A stretch of DNA of 64,000 nucleotides from Alphaproteobacteria bacterium. Lineage in GTDB: Bacteria > Pseudomonadota > Alphaproteobacteria > Micavibrionales > UBA2020. Below, one piece after another: positions 28,793 through 36,181 of this stretch. The first letter of the stretch is position 1; every line of letters starts with the position of its first letter. The translations under genes and the position numbers were made by a program. The notes below the pieces were generated by a model. That model was given only the letters and a program-made list of their open reading frames with translations, did no database searches and was not told where the DNA came from. The DNA lies in assembly GCA_025934695.1 (NCBI GenBank), contig JAICWS010000004.1, positions 257,496 through 321,495 on the forward strand. The letters are read 5' to 3'.

Positions 28793-29785
28793 TCAAATCG
28801 TCCTGAACACCCACATCAGCGCCGCGGCGAGGGCGAAGGTGAGCGGCAGGGTCAAGACCCAGGCCCAGACGATGTTGCCGACGATGCCCCAGCGCACGGC
28901 GGAGACGCGCTTGGTTGTGCCCACGCCCATGATGGCGCTGGAAATGACGTGCGTCGTGCTGACCGGGATGCCGAAGTGCGAGGCCCCGCCGATGATGAGC
29001 GAGGCGGTCGTTTCCGCCGCGAAGCCGTTGATGGGCTGCAGCTTGATCATCTTGGTGCCCAGCGTGCGAATGATGCGCCAGCCGCCCGACAGGGTGCCGA
29101 GCGCCATCGCGAGCGCGCAGCTGGCCTTGACCCACAAGGGGATCACGAAGTCGCTTTGCGGATGGCTGAGCAGCAGGGCAAGGCCGATCATGCCCATCGA
29201 CTTCTGCGCGTCGTTCTGCCCGTGGTTAAGGGCCATGAAGCCGGCCGAGATGATCTGCAGCCGCCCGAACAGGCGGTTGATGCGTCCCAGCTTGACCTTG
29301 TGAAAGCCCCAGGTCAGCGCGAGCATGAGGGTGAAGCCGATGACGATGCCCAGGACCGGCGAGAAAACCATCGGCGCCACGACTTTCGTGCCGACGGCGT
29401 TCCACATGATGTTACTGTTTCCCGCCGACACGAAGGTGGCGCCCAGCAATGAGCCAATCAGCGCGTGCGAGGAGCTGGTCGGCAATCCCTGCCACCAGGT
29501 GATCAGGTTCCAGATGATGGCGGCCGCGATTGCGCAAAGGACCGTGTGAAGGTTCAGCGTCGACGCATTCACGAGGCCCTTGCCCACGGTCGCCGCGACC
29601 TCGGTGCCCATCAGCGCGCCGCCGAAATTCAGCAGGGCGCCGAAGACGACGGCTGCGATCGGGCGCAATACGCGCGTGGAGACGACGGTGGCGATGGCGT
29701 TCGCCGTGTCGTGAAAACCGTTGATGAAGTCGAAGACGAGGGCCAGCCCCACGACCGTGCAGAGGAGGGGAAAGGATGCTTCCAT
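28793..29785 (-). CDS. pit: PiT-family inorganic phosphate transporter
   Basis: The 330-residue membrane protein has the two PiT signature repeats: NGFHDTANAIATVVSTRVL near the N-terminus and ALNHGQNDAQKSMGMIGLAL in the second half. It has about ten hydrophobic segments. PiT proteins take up phosphate together with protons or sodium as a metal-phosphate complex in the inner membrane. The length is at the short end of the family. It lies 14 bases after the DUF47 gene, the usual partner. Confidence 0.95.
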   Translation of the reverse strand: MEASFPLLCTVVGLALVFDFINGFHDTANAIATVVSTRVLRPIAAVVFGALLNFGGALMGTEVAATVGKGLVNASTLNLHTVLCAIAAAIIWNLITWWQGLPTSSSHALIGSLLGATFVSAGNSNIMWNAVGTKVVAPMVFSPVLGIVIGFTLMLALTWGFHKVKLGRINRLFGRLQIISAGFMALNHGQNDAQKSMGMIGLALLLSHPQSDFVIPLWVKASCALAMALGTLSGGWRIIRTLGTKMIKLQPINGFAAETTASLIIGGASHFGIPVSTTHVISSAIMGVGTTKRVSAVRWGIVGNIVWAWVLTLPLTFALAAALMWVFRTI

Positions 29786-29799
29786 GCCGCTTCCCGCCC

Positions 29800-30435
29800 T
29801 TAGCTGTGCTTCAGGGCGATCTGCAGCGCGACGCCGGCGGCGCTGCGGTAGCCGTCGATCACGCGTTCGAGCAGGTCGTAGATATCCTTACGCAGGATCA
29901 GCCGCCGCACGTCGCGGGTGTCCTTCATGAGGTTAACCTGCAGTTCGCTTAGCAGCAGGTCGCCCTTGTTCTCCAGCTCGTCCAGCACAGCCGCCTGCGA
30001 GACCACCTGTTCGGGCTTGCCGCCGCGGATGAGCGCCTTGATGATGCCGTCCATCGCCTCGGCTTCCTGCACAATCAGCCCGACCTGCCGCGGCAGGTCC
30101 TCGACATCATGCATGTCGTGGATGTCGAGATGCTCGCGCACCTTCTCGATGGTCTTGGTGATGCGGTAGAGGTAGGAGGAAAAGAGCTGGATGTCCTCGC
30201 GGTCGAAGGGGGTGACGAAGGTCAGGCACAGCTCCTGCGTGACTTCGTTGGACAGTTTCTTCGCCATCTGGCGGCAGCTCGAGATCGCGTTGCCGGCTTC
30301 GGCCTTCGCAGCCGTGTCGGTGCTGGTGACGAAGGTTTGCAGGTGCGTCGCGCTGGTATGCGCTTCGGCCGAAAGCTGCTCGATGTAGCGGTAGAATTTA
30401 CCTTCGCTGGGCAGCAGCCGGGCGATGTTCAGCAT
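29800..30435 (-). CDS. DUF47/PhoU-like regulator partner of PiT
   Basis: This 211-residue all-helical protein begins MLNIARLLPSEGKFYRYIEQ and contains VTPFDREDIQLFSSYLYRIT, the DUF47 hallmark (D-R-E-D in the PhoU-like metal site). The later helix is LDELENKGDLLLSELQVNLM, with an E-x3-D pattern that binds metal. Such proteins are always coded next to PiT transporters and are thought to control them. I chose ATG at 30435; an upstream in-frame start adds 19 non-conserved residues. It is divergent from the MazG-like gene. Confidence 0.93.
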   Translation of the reverse strand: MLNIARLLPSEGKFYRYIEQLSAEAHTSATHLQTFVTSTDTAAKAEAGNAISSCRQMAKKLSNEVTQELCLTFVTPFDREDIQLFSSYLYRITKTIEKVREHLDIHDMHDVEDLPRQVGLIVQEAEAMDGIIKALIRGGKPEQVVSQAAVLDELENKGDLLLSELQVNLMKDTRDVRRLILRKDIYDLLERVIDGYRSAAGVALQIALKHS

Positions 30436-31032: not shown

Positions 31033-31743
31033 TTGCATCACCTCATCGTCCATACCTGCTTCGACCTTCTCGCCGTGACGCTCGCGGTTCTGGGCGGATT
31101 TCTCGTGTACAAATGGCGCTTTCAGGACCAGCTGGTGCGGACTGCCGCCAGCGTCGGCAGCGGGTATTTCCTGTTCCTGAGTCTGGGCAGCATCACGGGG
31201 GCGTTTTTCTTCGGCACGCTGAACCTGTACCTGATCGACCTGCACGAGGCGGGGCGCAGCGTGCTGGGCGCGCTGTTCGGCGCGATCCTGATGGTGGAAC
31301 TGTACAAGCTGAAACGCGGCACGAAAGGGTCCACCGGTTATATATATGTCGTCCCGTTCAGCATCTGCATCGCGGTGGGGCGGTTGGGCTGTTTCTTTTC
31401 GGGCATCGAGGACCAGACGGCGGGCGTGTCCACCGGACTCCCCTGGGGCCACGATTTCGGCGACGGGATTCTGCGGCATCCCGTCCAGCTTTACGAAAGC
31501 TTGTCGATGCTGGCTTTCCTGCTGTTCACGCTGGGGATGCTAAGGAACCATCCGGGCTTCATCATCCGCTATGGCTTTTATCTTTGCGCGGGCTTTTACG
31601 CGGCCCAGCGCTTCGTGTGGGAGTTCCTGAAACCCTATGCGCCGATCGGCCCGCTCGACATGTTTCAATACCTTTGCCTTGCCATCGTTCTTTACAGTTC
31701 TGTCATGATTTACGGATCCCGCCATGCCCTTCGAGCAGCGTAA
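31033..31743 (+). CDS. Lgt-like membrane protein (diverged diacylglyceryl transferase)
   Basis: This 236-residue protein has about seven hydrophobic segments and the Lgt fold pattern: SICIAVGRLGCFFSGIEDQTAG aligns with the Lgt signature GRxGNFxNxE, and HPVQLYESLSMLAFL matches its HPTQLYE motif. The Lgt family transfers a diacylglyceryl group from phosphatidylglycerol to a lipoprotein cysteine. Here the essential Asn of the signature is Cys, and the histidine-glycine pair before it (HGG) reads LGA, so normal Lgt activity is doubtful. The start is TTG at 31033 with only CGGG upstream. The gene overlaps the radical SAM gene by 20 bases, which implies coupled translation and joint function. Confidence 0.85.
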   Translation: MHHLIVHTCFDLLAVTLAVLGGFLVYKWRFQDQLVRTAASVGSGYFLFLSLGSITGAFFFGTLNLYLIDLHEAGRSVLGALFGAILMVELYKLKRGTKGSTGYIYVVPFSICIAVGRLGCFFSGIEDQTAGVSTGLPWGHDFGDGILRHPVQLYESLSMLAFLLFTLGMLRNHPGFIIRYGFYLCAGFYAAQRFVWEFLKPYAPIGPLDMFQYLCLAIVLYSSVMIYGSRHALRAA

Positions 31744-33130
31744 GCAAACGCCCTATGTTTTTTACGGCCAGACGACCTCCCTGTGCGAAGAATGCCTCGC
31801 GCTGGTTCCCGCAAAAATCCTGATCGAGGAGGGGGAAGTTTACTATCAGAAACGCTGCCCGGCGCACGGCGTGCAGAAGACCAGGGTTTCCAGCGACGCC
31901 GGCTATTTCAAATGGTGCAAGGACTTCCAGAAGCCGGGCGACCGCCCGCTCGACTACCAGACGCGCACGGAATACGGCTGCCCGCTCGACTGCGGCCTGT
32001 GCCCCGACCACGAGCAGCACAGCTGCCTCGCCCTGATCGAGATCAACGAGGAATGCAATCTCGAATGTCCGGTCTGCTTCGCGGAATCGTCGCCGATGCG
32101 CAAGAAGCATTTAAGTCTCGACAAGGTCGGGTTCATGATGGATGCGCTCGTCAAAAGCGAGGGCGAGCCCGACATCCTCCAGATCAGCGGCGGCGAGCCG
32201 ACGATCCATCCGCAGATCGTGGATATCCTGAAACTTGCGAAGACAAAACCTATCCGCCATCTGATGATCAACACTAACGGCGTGCGCATCGCGTCGGACA
32301 AGGAATTCGTCAAGCAGCTCGCGGCCCTGCGACCCGGCTTCGAGGTCTACCTCCAGTTCGATTCGATGAAGAAGGAAGCGCTGGAGAATCTGCGCGGCGT
32401 CGATCTTCGCAATGTGCGCAAGAAGGCGCTCGACAATCTCGAGGAAGCCGGCATTTCGACGACGCCGGTGGTGACGGTCAAGAAAGGCGTTAACGAGGAT
32501 GAGGTCGGGGCCATCATCGACCATGCATTGAGCTATCGCTGCGTGCGCGGCGTCACTTTCCAGCCCGTGCAGGACGCGGGCCGCAACGAGGGTTTCGACA
32601 AGAACCGCGACCGCGTGCTGCTCAGCGATATCCGCCGCGGCATTTACGAACAATCCAGCGTCTTCAAGGCGCCCGACATCATCCCGCTGCCCTGCAACCC
32701 GGAAACGATTTCCATCGCTTATGGCATCCGCGATGGCCGCAAAGTGACGCCCATTACATCGCTGATCCCGCAGCACGACCTCGTCGCCGCCGTACCGAAC
32801 GCCGTCTCGTTCGAAAAAAACCGGGAGCTCAAGCAGCGCGTGATCGACCTGTTCTCGCTCTCCTCCGGCGACCTGAACACGGCCGAACGCATGCAGTCTC
32901 TGCTCTGCTGCCTGCCCGAAATCCCGGTGCTGAAAAACATGAGCTACGAGAACGTTTTCCGCGTGACCATCGTGCAGTTCATGGACCGTTTCAACTTCTG
33001 CCTTGCCAACATCAAGCGCTCCTGCATCCATTTCGTGACACCGCACGGACAGATCATCCCGTTCGAGAACTACAACATGTTCTACCGCAACGGGCTGGTG
33101 GAAGAGATGCGGCGGAGGAAAGCAGGATGA
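31724..33130 (+). CDS. Radical SAM enzyme of the Tes/MJ0619-like (COG1964) family
   Basis: The 468-residue protein has the radical SAM cluster motif C-x3-C-x2-C in EECNLECPVCFAES. Just before it is the family-specific cysteine group GCPLDCGLCPDHEQHSC. An N-terminal rubredoxin-like region has SLCEECLALVP and KRCPAHG. SAM-binding motifs include ILQISGGEPTIHP and MINTNGVRI. A late cysteine group (LLCCLPEIP, IKRSCIHFVTP) probably binds another cluster. Known relatives include the archaeal tetraether lipid synthase Tes, which joins lipid tails by radical chemistry. Overlap with the Lgt-like gene and the following membrane-protein genes point to lipid modification, but the substrate is not shown. 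The start ATG at 31724 is preceded by CGGATC. Confidence 0.85.
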   Translation: MPFEQRKQTPYVFYGQTTSLCEECLALVPAKILIEEGEVYYQKRCPAHGVQKTRVSSDAGYFKWCKDFQKPGDRPLDYQTRTEYGCPLDCGLCPDHEQHSCLALIEINEECNLECPVCFAESSPMRKKHLSLDKVGFMMDALVKSEGEPDILQISGGEPTIHPQIVDILKLAKTKPIRHLMINTNGVRIASDKEFVKQLAALRPGFEVYLQFDSMKKEALENLRGVDLRNVRKKALDNLEEAGISTTPVVTVKKGVNEDEVGAIIDHALSYRCVRGVTFQPVQDAGRNEGFDKNRDRVLLSDIRRGIYEQSSVFKAPDIIPLPCNPETISIAYGIRDGRKVTPITSLIPQHDLVAAVPNAVSFEKNRELKQRVIDLFSLSSGDLNTAERMQSLLCCLPEIPVLKNMSYENVFRVTIVQFMDRFNFCLANIKRSCIHFVTPHGQIIPFENYNMFYRNGLVEEMRRRKAG

Positions 33131-33435
33131 ATGGGAGACGTTTTGCAGGATGGACTTTGGTTGTGATTGGCGGGTTGCTTGCGTTGCTGACGGGCGGGTG
33201 CACGCTTTACCAGGCTATCCAGGACTTTATGGGGTACTACCGCTCAGAAATCGGGCCGATTTATATTTTTGGGTGCGTACCATTTGTTATTGGCGTCGCG
33301 ATCGTATGGATCGGATTTGTTTTGCTTAAGCCTACCCATAGCGCGCGTAGGGAAGACATGAACTCATGGGAAATTGAGAAGCAGGAGGAGACGCGGGTTT
33401 CATTTAAAAAGTCAGGCGAAGGGGACGATAGTTGA
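33127..33435 (+). CDS. Small two-helix membrane protein, tandem paralog 1
   Basis: This 102-residue protein starts ATG at 33127, overlapping the radical SAM stop (ATGA), so it belongs to that operon. Its first segment is RFAGWTLVVIGGLLALLTGG followed by a cysteine (GGCTLY); the second is IYIFGCVPFVIGVAIVWIGF. The tail is charged. The order hydrophobic helix, GGC/GPC motif, then VPFVIG helix is shared with 33995 and 34398, which indicates tandem duplication. The cysteine could be lipidated, but the helix is long and the segment would be an unusual signal peptide. Confidence 0.75.
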   Translation: MNGRRFAGWTLVVIGGLLALLTGGCTLYQAIQDFMGYYRSEIGPIYIFGCVPFVIGVAIVWIGFVLLKPTHSARREDMNSWEIEKQEETRVSFKKSGEGDDS

Positions 33436-33484: not shown

Positions 33485-33967
33485 ATGGACACCTTTTTGG
33501 GCGCATTATTGAAGCTTATCGGCAACGTGATCATGGTTGGCTCCGCGATCGTGGGGCTCTTTGTCATCGTGATCATGCTGAACCCGCTGGAGCGGCATAA
33601 TTCGCTGGGCCTGAATATTTTGGTCTTCTTCATCATGGTAGGGCTGCCGTACCTATTCGGACATGGGTTGCACAGCATCGGCAAGCGCTTGCAGGAAAAC
33701 AAGCCGGTGGGCGTCGTTTGGGAGCCTGTTGAGAATGCGCCCTCATCTGCGATGGCCAACTCCATCACGCCCACGGCATTCGAGCCGCCGCGCTTTCGGC
33801 AGCGCCGCCCCGCGCGCGAGGTCGATGTGGACGTCGAACCGGAACAGGCGACTGCCTCCCCACCCGCAACGCCTGAGGTGACGGCTGCGCCCCGGCGCTC
33901 AGTGGACAATAAGCCTGACCCGACGTCGATGGGTGTCGATACGTTTATTGATCCGGACAAGAGGTGA
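33485..33967 (+). CDS. Membrane protein with C-terminal cytoplasmic tail, tandem paralog 2
   Basis: The 160-residue protein has two hydrophobic segments (VIMVGSAIVGLFVIVIML and GLNILVFFIMVGLPYLFGHG) in the first 75 residues, then a hydrophilic, proline-rich tail. The second segment, VGLPYLFGHGLHSIGKRL, parallels VPFVIG...GRRL in the neighbours, but the GGC/GPC cysteine is missing, so it is the most diverged member. The ATG at 33485 has GAGG upstream. Function unknown. Confidence 0.7.
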   Translation: MDTFLGALLKLIGNVIMVGSAIVGLFVIVIMLNPLERHNSLGLNILVFFIMVGLPYLFGHGLHSIGKRLQENKPVGVVWEPVENAPSSAMANSITPTAFEPPRFRQRRPAREVDVDVEPEQATASPPATPEVTAAPRRSVDNKPDPTSMGVDTFIDPDKR

Positions 33968-33994: not shown

Positions 33995-34324
33995 ATGAAC
34001 CCGGGAAGATTTCTCGGCGGATTACTTTTGTCCCTCGGCCTGATGATTGTTTGGATTTCGGGTCCTTGCACAGTTTTTGTTTTCGCCGGCACGCTGTTGG
34101 GCGGGAAAGGGATCGGTCATCAAAAGCTGGCGGATGTCGCGGGTGCGGAATTGTTGCCCCTCATTGTCGGCGGCGTTCCTTTCGTCATCGGGGCTGTTCT
34201 TGTTAAAATCGGGAGGCGGCTCACGGGCGGACACCCGCCTGACGTCTATATGCCGCCACCGAAGGATACGGAAACTCCCTCGTCGCAGGACGATATCGAA
34301 AGAATGAACAAGGACATCGAGTGA
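33995..34324 (+). CDS. Small two-helix membrane protein, tandem paralog 3
   Basis: The 109-residue protein begins MNPGRFLGGLLLSLGLMIVW, with a following SGPC motif, and a second helix ELLPLIVGGVPFVIGAVLVK followed by IGRRL. This is the same layout as the gene at 33127. The charged tail has the segment SQDDIERMNKDIE. GGAACAGG stands just before the ATG. It is probably in the same transcript as its neighbours. Confidence 0.72.
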   Translation: MNPGRFLGGLLLSLGLMIVWISGPCTVFVFAGTLLGGKGIGHQKLADVAGAELLPLIVGGVPFVIGAVLVKIGRRLTGGHPPDVYMPPPKDTETPSSQDDIERMNKDIE

Positions 34325-34397: not shown

Positions 34398-35264
34398 ATG
34401 AATATCAGGGCGTTCTTCGGCTATATATGGATCGCGCTCGGCGCGATGATCATGTTCTCTTCCGGCGGCTGCGCCATCAGCATGATTTTCGATCCGCTCG
34501 TCCACGGACGACTGCGCGGCCTGTCGGACTTCGTCGTGGGTACCGCCTTCACCCTGTTCTTCAGCGCTATTCCGTTTCTCATCGGCCTGGGACTGTTTCG
34601 GCTGGGGATCAGGATGGCCGCGCCTTCCATCTCCGGTTTGAATAAGCTGAATATGCAACGCGTTGCGCCGGCGGCACTGGCCGATGACGCCAATTCGCTC
34701 TGGCTCTCTTTGAAGGAAGGGTGGAAAGCGGTCGCCGGACCGGATTCGCTGGTGCTGCAACTGCTGAAGAAGTTCGGCATTCCGCCCATCATGCTGATCG
34801 CCGTCGGCAACTTTATAGGACGCATCGGCGCCTACGCGCTCATTTTCATCATGCTCTTTGCCTGGGCGGATTCCTATGAAGGGCACAAAATATCGGTGAG
34901 CAAAATCCTCAGCCAGATATTGACATGGTCGGTCCTTCCCTTCTGCCTGGGATGGGGTATTGTAGCCTGGGGGCGGCAATTGCGGTCTTCGCAGCCGGCG
35001 GCTGAAGAGGGTGCGGAGCCAATCAGTGAACGAAGGGCCTTTTACAGCGCCCTCATGATGATTGCGGGCGCGCTTATCATCATCTCAGCGACATTGCATA
35101 CGCTACGCGTCTTCTTCCACGGCGTCTGGGCTTGGGGATGGATGGCGGATACGCTGATCTTGCCGTTGATCGTCTACGTCCTGATGGTCGTTCCGGGCGC
35201 GCTTCTGGTTTGGGGCGGATGGCGGCTGGCAAAACCAAAAGCGAAAAAGGATGACGTCAAGTAA
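34398..35264 (+). CDS. Multi-pass membrane protein, tandem paralog 4 (fused or duplicated)
   Basis: This 288-residue protein starts with MNIRAFFGYIWIALGAMIMF then SGGC, and has FFSAIPFLIGLGLFRLGIR, so its first third is another copy of the two-helix unit. It continues with further hydrophobic segments (AYALIFIMLFAWADS, LTWSVLPFCLGWGIVAWGRQ, SALMMIAGALIIISA, LILPLIVYVLMVVPGALLVWGG). The last ones again resemble the second helix (VVPGALLVWGGWRL). It therefore looks like an internally repeated, larger member. Function unknown. Confidence 0.75.
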   Translation: MNIRAFFGYIWIALGAMIMFSSGGCAISMIFDPLVHGRLRGLSDFVVGTAFTLFFSAIPFLIGLGLFRLGIRMAAPSISGLNKLNMQRVAPAALADDANSLWLSLKEGWKAVAGPDSLVLQLLKKFGIPPIMLIAVGNFIGRIGAYALIFIMLFAWADSYEGHKISVSKILSQILTWSVLPFCLGWGIVAWGRQLRSSQPAAEEGAEPISERRAFYSALMMIAGALIIISATLHTLRVFFHGVWAWGWMADTLILPLIVYVLMVVPGALLVWGGWRLAKPKAKKDDVK

Positions 35265-35281: not shown

Positions 35282-36181
35282 TTACATTCCCAGCATAAAC
35301 AGCACCAGCGATCCAAATCCGGCATTCGACTTGAAGATGCGCAGGCAGCTGTCAGGGTCCCGCATATCCCAGTTCAGCAGTTGCCAGATGGCCTGCGCGA
35401 TCACCGGCATCGTCAGGAGCACGGTGAACTCGCTGTAGGCGGTGAAGAACTTCGTCAGGGCCAGGAAGAAGATCGACAGCATCAGGCAGATGCCGACGAA
35501 CCAGCCGCTCCTGTCGCCCCACAGCAAAGCGGTGGATTTGATGCCGACGGTCGCATCGTCTTCCTTGTCCTGGTGCGCGTAGATCGTGTCATAGGCGAGC
35601 GTCCACAAAATCCCCGCGAGATATAAAACGAACGGCGGCGCATTCAGTGTGCCGCGCACGGCGGCCCAGCCCATCAGCGCGCCCCAGTTGAAGGTGAAGC
35701 CCAGGAACAGCTGCGGCCACCAGGTGATGCGCTTCATCGCCGGATAAGTCCCGACCAGCACCAGCGACAGTACGCCCAGGATTTGCGCGGCGCGGTTGAG
35801 ACTCAGGAGAATAAGCAGGCTCAGAAACAACAGGATGCCCAGGAAAATCACTGCCTGGCGGACGGTCAGCTCGCCCGAGGGCAGGGGGCGCACGCGGGTG
35901 CGTTCGACCTGCGCGTCAAGCTTGCGGTCCCAGATATCGTTGACGGTGCAGCCCGCGCCGCGCATGAGGACCGCGCCGAGCGCAAAGCGCAGCATCAGGT
36001 TCCATTCATGCGCGGTCATAGAGGGCAGGCCGCCGCTCGCGAGCGCGATGCTCCACCAGCACGGGAAAAGGAGGAGCCATGTGCCGATGGGCCGGTCGAG
36101 CCGCGCCAGCTTCACATAAGGATGGAAGCGGGCCGGCGTGACGCGGAAAACGAATTTGTCAGTCTGGATATCGGTCGCCAT
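35282..36181 (-). CDS. ubiA: 4-hydroxybenzoate polyprenyltransferase UbiA
   Basis: The 299-residue membrane protein has the UbiA motifs: the first aspartate-rich motif is [20 protein letters not shown], and the second is [20 protein letters not shown]. The N-terminal [20 protein letters not shown] matches UbiA and Coq2. It attaches the polyprenyl tail to 4-hydroxybenzoate in ubiquinone synthesis, in the inner membrane. It is divergent from rsmE, as in many alphaproteobacteria. The DUF3309 gene lies between them on the same strand as ubiA. Confidence 0.96.

Follow-up and report, generated by a model that had tools for sequence, protein, structure and literature searches.

What do a diverged relative of the lipoprotein transferase Lgt and a radical S-adenosylmethionine (SAM) enzyme, encoded by overlapping genes, do together? 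The question was raised by a gene pair in a window of 64,000 nucleotides from an alphaproteobacterium of the lineage Micavibrionales; UBA2020 (assembly GCA_025934695.1, contig JAICWS010000004.1, positions 257,496 to 321,495 of the forward strand). An earlier note had proposed as its product an unusual membrane lipid or lipoprotein (ether, bridged or branched), formed by coupling of lipid tails as done by the tetraether synthase Tes. Our analysis revealed a third part beside the pair that the note had overlooked, namely small membrane proteins with a G-x-C motif. The Lgt-like protein with Cys at the place of Asn146, the radical SAM enzyme, whose clade is separate from Tes, and the G-x-C proteins travel together across bacterial phyla and into archaea. 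Our preferred reading, at about even confidence, is a dedicated system of three parts for the modification of small polytopic membrane proteins. The pair would supply its core enzymes, and the Lgt-like protein would lipidate the G-x-C cysteine. To judge from its genes, the set suggests an undescribed way of modifying membrane proteins.

The pairing was surveyed in 114 radical SAM rows, and in 52 of them an Lgt-like gene was found on the same strand within 1.9 kb. These 52 pairs came from Pseudomonadota, Bacteroidota, Actinomycetota, Armatimonadota-type genomes, and Poseidoniales-type archaea, on genomes or plasmids (the two "-type" labels mark kinship to a titled metagenome-assembled genome, MAG). 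In a FastTree phylogeny of 111 rows (L180 and L181, which occupy the same places as L214 and L215, and L134, of 381 residues, were dropped), all 52 paired proteins fell into one branch of 59 with a support of 98, and five of the seven unpaired members lay within 2 kb of a contig end. The rows outside this clade comprised archaeal Tes-type proteins, haloarchaeal and M. vanbaalenii plasmid proteins, and others. None of these 52 relatives had an Lgt-like neighbor, although 28 of them had short flanks; rows L171-L200 had flanks of only about 1.4 kb and 0.1 kb, which makes their unpaired state weaker evidence than that of the 24 other outside rows. The pairing is far beyond chance. The earlier note had named a pair not conserved together as the outcome that would speak against it, and the opposite was found, with a conserved unit in 52 of the 59 clade members. 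The Lgt-like gene was located upstream or downstream of the radical SAM gene depending on the branch, and the two genes overlapped or were spaced, which implied that the linkage had outlasted rearrangement.

The pair was distributed sparsely. Among 55 genomes, the window's and 54 relatives, two other full-length relatives were detected, with 88% identity in the same genus and 71% in the same family. The PF23545 cut-off was passed in 12 of 398 genomes of the window's phylum, and all 11 besides the window's own had an Lgt-like open reading frame (ORF) near the radical SAM gene, with a gap of at most 795 bases. In the phylum of an Armatimonadetes MAG, 41 of 251 genomes passed, and the fetched stretch contained an Lgt-like gene at 31 of these 41 loci. 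Matches were found in 62 of 116 archaeal genomes, 48 distinct places of which were examined, and the pair was present in three genomes of the archaeal phylum to which a Poseidoniales MAG belongs. Plasmid records with the pair came from Persicobacter (Bacteroidota) and from Nonomuraea, Mycobacterium branderi, and M. avium (Actinomycetota), and phage records gave two partial matches (27% identity, 39% of the query covered). Two ORFs were under the length limit of the survey (L068, whose gene is split over two ORFs, and the shorter second ORF of L131), and L058, a match below the cut-off, had neither gene. A wider conserved neighborhood was considered and rejected, since the BLAST clusters shared across lineages were the pair itself and its reading-frame shadows (15 loci and the window). 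The small G-x-C proteins escaped this clustering and were found by eye and by motif.

The G-x-C proteins were defined strictly as ORFs of 45-190 residues with 2-4 predicted helices and a hydrophobic stretch followed by G-x-C. The 306 kb lying within 3 kb of the 52 pairs contained 43 such ORFs at 27 loci, a few of them overlapping each other and 42 of them on the strand of the pair. The controls together yielded two in 843 kb: one in the same loci further away (234 kb), none around 60 radical SAM genes without Lgt (209 kb), and one in 400 kb taken by position from elsewhere in 20 pair genomes (20 regions). Among small membrane ORFs, Cys occupied the third place of the motif in 53% of 81 near the pairs and in 4% of 46 controls, whereas for Pro, Phe, and Thr at that place the share went from 2-4% to 16-21%, and for Gly from 17% to 36%. 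At newly sampled loci all three parts were present in four of four, two of them very diverged and from one family; three further newly examined loci, below the cut-off, contained neither enzyme. A genome-wide profile was built from 18 G-x-C hairpins. At E<=1e-6 it matched in 14 of 16 pair genomes, every match lying about 2 kb or less from the pair, and in none of 31 genomes without the pair (best 4.5e-5).

The positive-inside rule placed the cysteine end of the motif outside in 36 cases and inside in 4, with 2 undecided. The G-x-C helix was fused to varied stretches (zinc ribbon, DUF4395, SHOCT-like, and others), as expected for a modification signal, and several different G-x-C proteins occurred in tandem at one locus. 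In having an outward cysteine where a hydrophobic helix ends, with an Lgt-type protein encoded alongside, the set resembles the bacterial lipoprotein pathway (Lgt, LspA, Lnt). It differs from that pathway in the Gly at -2, which was imposed by the selection, in the multi-helix architecture, and in the added radical SAM enzyme. None of the 51 listed motifs matched the lipobox [LVI][ASTVI][GAS]C, which in classical lipoproteins follows a cleavable signal peptide; this is true by construction given the imposed Gly, and the proteins have two or more predicted helices.

In the window, three G-x-C proteins were recognized by the profile and one of them, the first in Table 1, by the strict criterion; the second was not among the strict hits and the largest was too long. 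The start of the first overlaps the stop of the radical SAM gene (ATGA). A later hairpin of the largest protein matched the same profile (E 1.1e-6) and contained no Cys, and the protein encoded between the first and second G-x-C genes is possibly a degenerate paralogue. The two enzyme genes share 20 bases (31724-31743), as the earlier note had read them. The start codon of the Lgt-like ORF is TTG, and the same-genus homologue has GTG at the same residue.

Table 1. Genes of the three-part set in the window.
Feature	Coordinates	Strand	Description
Lgt-like membrane protein	31033..31743	+	236 amino acids, TTG start; PF01790 60.1 bits and alignment
Radical SAM enzyme	31724..33130	+	468 amino acids; zinc ribbon, CPLDCGLC, CxxxCxxC; member of the Lgt-paired clade
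Two-helix membrane protein	33127..33435	+	102 amino acids; LLTGGCTLY (Cys25); profile E 1.5e-23
Small membrane protein	33485..33967	+	160 amino acids; no Cys (VGSAIVGLF); weak profile match, E 0.001
Two-helix membrane protein	33995..34324	+	109 amino acids; G-x-C VWISGPCTVFVF (Cys25); profile E 8.1e-20
Larger membrane protein	34398..35264	+	288 amino acids; first hairpin MFSSGGCAISM (Cys25), profile E 2.8e-22

The Lgt-like protein contained both stretches on which the earlier assignment was based (GRLGCFFSG and HPVQLYE), and the domain search proposed at that time detected the Pfam LGT domain PF01790 well above its cut-off (60.1 versus 24.9 bits). The NCBIfam Lgt equivalog and subfamily models gave at most 23.1 bits against cut-offs of 118.9-428, and none was passed. 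The protein thus belongs to the same superfamily as Escherichia coli Lgt (PDB 5azb/5azc), the prolipoprotein diacylglyceryl transferase; four paired proteins matched the genome's own Lgt at an hhalign probability of 98.2, and the window protein is 236 residues long versus 280 for that Lgt. It keeps counterparts of Arg143, Gly154, Pro197, Tyr235, Arg239, and Glu243 of the E. coli enzyme. The two substitutions described earlier were also seen in the alignment: Asn146 corresponds to Cys120 of the window protein, and the His103-Gly-Gly motif reads L-G-A, with Leu at the place of His103. In E. coli Lgt, His103, the proposed base, and Asn146 are essential (PMC4728403, PMC8689077; these and the other papers are cited from excerpts), the active site lies on the outer side, and Arg143 and Arg239 act on phosphatidylglycerol (PMC4728403).

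The alignment was extended to 49 paired proteins, 7 extra paired proteins, and 18 genome-best Lgt proteins, the last set unfiltered for HGG. Cys replaced Asn146 in all 56 paired proteins (49/49 and 7/7), and His103 was present in none of them. Arg239 was kept in all 56 (49/49 and 7/7), Arg143 in 49/49 and 5/7 with Lys in the other two, Glu243 in 52 (48/49 and 4/7) with Asp in the remainder, and Gly154 in 49/49 and 5/7; an additional CC pair occurred in 31 of 49. Both His103 and Asn146 were kept in 17 of the 18 genome-best proteins. The exception was L086, the best Lgt copy of the Armatimonadota-type genome G452, which has Cys at the place of Asn146 and no His103, as does the other Lgt copy of that genome. 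The signature is therefore not exclusive to paired copies. By comparison of these residues, some bacteria may rely on an Lgt without His103 and with Cys146, and the signature may be compatible with real transferase activity. An Lgt besides the paired copy was found in 15 of 16 pair genomes scanned (one in 14, two in G313) and not in the archaeon G453, and three of three genomes without the pair had one copy each. A phmmer search of the Lgt-like protein against PDB returned unrelated weak matches only.

These observations led to the following proposal. The Lgt-like protein would bind a phospholipid through Arg143 and Arg239 and transfer the glyceryl-lipid moiety of this phospholipid onto the G-x-C thiol on the membrane face where Lgt acts, and neither a classical lipobox nor a cleaved signal peptide would be required. 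The cysteine is the likely acceptor since it lies at the outer end of a helix encoded beside an Lgt relative that retains both arginines. From the cytoplasmic side, the radical SAM enzyme might alter the tail of the lipid or its adduct with the protein, a guess prompted by its kinship to the lipid enzyme Tes. A bolder version, which we regard as unlikely, has the radical SAM enzyme and the Cys-bearing Lgt relative attaching a radically modified lipid, possibly membrane-spanning or tail-linked, to the outward G-x-C cysteine in bacteria and archaea.

Several points weigh against the proposed lipidation. His103 and Asn146, both essential in E. coli Lgt, are lost from every paired protein, and the Lgt-like protein may accordingly be non-catalytic or act in some other way. 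The step assigned to the radical SAM enzyme is a guess. The mechanism has no structural support: the modeling that the earlier note had suggested for both proteins was carried out and gave poor models (mean predicted local distance difference test scores, pLDDT, of 56.5 and 41.4) that were left unused, and a Foldseek search with the poor Lgt-like model was uninformative, returning nothing at E<=0.001. Some of the same loci had served to shape the G-x-C criterion, and partial independence from this shaping can be claimed only for the four newly sampled loci and the genome-wide profile. Even for the profile, 10 of the 16 pair genomes had supplied rows, and of the other 6, 4 still matched. Finally, 25 of the 52 loci lacked a strict G-x-C ORF; a looser look added 7 loci and the profile 2 more, and 16 of the 52 had none by any look.

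In the main rival, the G-x-C cysteine or its neighbors are modified by the radical SAM enzyme itself, for example through a thioether or C-C cross-link as in ribosomally synthesized and post-translationally modified peptides, with the Lgt-like protein assisting as a lipid-binding partner or as a hydrogen-atom donor through its Cys. The complete absence of His103 and Asn146 from the paired Lgt-like proteins fits this rival. In six plasmid relatives of the radical SAM protein, a methyltransferase gene takes the place of Lgt, which would fit a constant radical SAM enzyme with a variable partner. The related Tes also makes a carbon-sulfur bond to its cluster in catalysis (PMC9433317). However, in 36 of the 40 decided cases the cysteine was predicted to lie outside, across the membrane from the radical SAM enzyme. 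Radical SAM enzymes are cytoplasmic. Moreover, a mere scaffold would not need Arg143, Arg239, and Glu243, which the Lgt-like protein retained. We consider the rival unlikely, and lipidation of the cysteine by the Lgt-like protein is preferred to it.

The second alternative, which is the membrane-lipid product and Tes-type tail coupling of the earlier note, was weighed on the radical SAM protein. Its nearest solved relative was the archaeal tetraether synthase MJ0619 (7tol, E 6.6e-62). An N-terminal zinc-ribbon (rubredoxin-like) domain, PF23545, with the ligands C-x2-C...C-x2-H (C21, C24, C45, H48), was followed by the radical SAM core. The two motifs that the note had listed, GCPLDCGLCPDH at residues 85-96 and C111-x3-C115-x2-C118, were both present; the former includes the N-terminal cluster motif CPLDCGLC (C86, C90, C93, with H96 nearby) and the latter provides the radical SAM cluster cysteines. 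These three sets are shared with Tes, also called GDGT-MAS (MJ0619, PDB 7tol/7tom; NF045702), where their ligand roles have been described, and a cluster-bound carbon-sulfur intermediate at a C-terminal cluster has been proposed for the coupling reaction (PMC9433317). Three C-terminal cysteines were conserved in 27 of 27 archaeal Tes-type rows and are inferred from this conservation to be the ligands of the Tes C-terminal [Fe4S4] cluster. In the window protein these positions are T328, S433, and E448, and the protein was placed outside the archaeal branch of the tree, in the separate Lgt-paired clade. Its score against the Tes model NF045702 was 272.8 bits, below the cut-off of 450. The highest NCBIfam score was that of the radical SAM (seleno)protein model TrsS, NF045646, and it too was far under its cut-off (309.7 versus 490 bits). 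Eight other relatives were likewise below both cut-offs, with TrsS as the top model. TrsS genes adjoin a methyltransferase.

Given the missing C-terminal cysteines, the data do not support chain coupling of the Tes type by the window protein. All 59 clade members kept C101, C324, the radical SAM motif, and the rubredoxin cysteines, and 58 kept C434; the window protein has C434 and further cysteines at C395 and C396. Among the 49 paired proteins, 20 had the N-terminal cluster motif only and 29 the Tes-type C-terminal cysteines only, a count that depends on the alignment. The two sets were mutually exclusive, with the same dependence on the alignment. This split in cysteine content suggests that reactions of more than one type may occur within the Lgt-paired clade.

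We regard a membrane lipid or lipoprotein of this unusual kind (ether, bridged or branched), formed by Tes-type coupling of tails, as quite unlikely. The kinship to Tes favors it, as do the Tes-type cysteines kept in those 29 paired proteins and the published proposal that bacterial Tes homologues make branched glycerol dialkyl glycerol tetraethers (brGDGTs; PMC8941075). On the other side, the window type lacks the cysteines and scores under the Tes cut-off, dedicated G-x-C proteins adjoin the pair, and bacteria and archaea, despite their different bulk lipids, share the pair. G-x-C proteins next to the pair make a protein target more likely than bulk membrane lipid. The kinship of both proteins to lipid-acting enzymes, as diverged relatives, and the conserved pairing have stood from the earlier proposal, whereas carbon-carbon coupling of tails is not supported. 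A membrane complex without covalent lipidation, in which the G-x-C and Lgt-like cysteines would be, for example, metal or redox ligands for the radical SAM enzyme, agrees with the cysteine-rich parts (Cys146, the CC pair in 31 of 49 Lgt-like proteins, zinc-ribbon matches on some G-x-C proteins) but is very unlikely, since the G-x-C cysteine is predicted outward in most cases and tandem, differing G-x-C proteins at one locus resemble substrates and not subunits.

If lipidation of the G-x-C cysteine is correct, the set would represent a second route of cysteine modification for membrane proteins, with a recognizable motif and ready candidate substrates; a radically modified lipid on that cysteine would be a protein-anchoring chemistry not known elsewhere. 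A total of 456 bacterial Tes homologues have been published (PMC8941075), homologues have been reported in 281 bacterial MAGs (PMC11868695), and brGDGT synthesis is their published, untested proposed function (PMC8941075, PMC11868695). Among the matches listed from openly licensed PMC papers, no title or abstract start was recognized as describing the pairing with Lgt or the G-x-C proteins. The branch sampled here has an Lgt relative and dedicated Cys-bearing membrane proteins, so lipid-biomarker studies could be misled if they take all bacterial Tes homologues as indicators of membrane-spanning lipids.

Other proteins were also seen beside the pair. A second small two-helix family (F-x-[FY]-C-K ... 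R-C) occurred at 23 loci of one Armatimonadota-type branch (examples are L028:11134-11433, L132, L138, and L165), three of which had no Lgt-like gene in the fetched stretch; it was found in none of the 20 control regions. In Poseidoniales-type archaea, larger proteins beside the pair had a final helix bearing G-L-C, G-F-C, or F-G-C close to the C-terminus (L205:3249-4160, L205:4172-4657, and L202:7485-8567). A gene for an ICMT/PEMT-family membrane methyltransferase lay between the radical SAM and Lgt-like genes in one sub-branch (L141, L143, L146, and L148) and adjoined the pair in L153. The PF04140 match of L143:5974-6600 was 47.5 bits, and the other methyltransferase loci were judged by eye. 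On the plasmids L060, L061, and L065-L068 (M. vanbaalenii and haloarchaea), the radical SAM relatives adjoined an annotated methyltransferase instead of an Lgt-like gene. The window gene set itself lies between ordinary chromosomal genes, with an ORF that by eye resembles a PiT transporter and a weak PhoU_div match, under the cut-off, on one flank (28793-30435) and a UbiA prenyltransferase on the other (35282-36181), and the same-genus genome G001 is arranged similarly.

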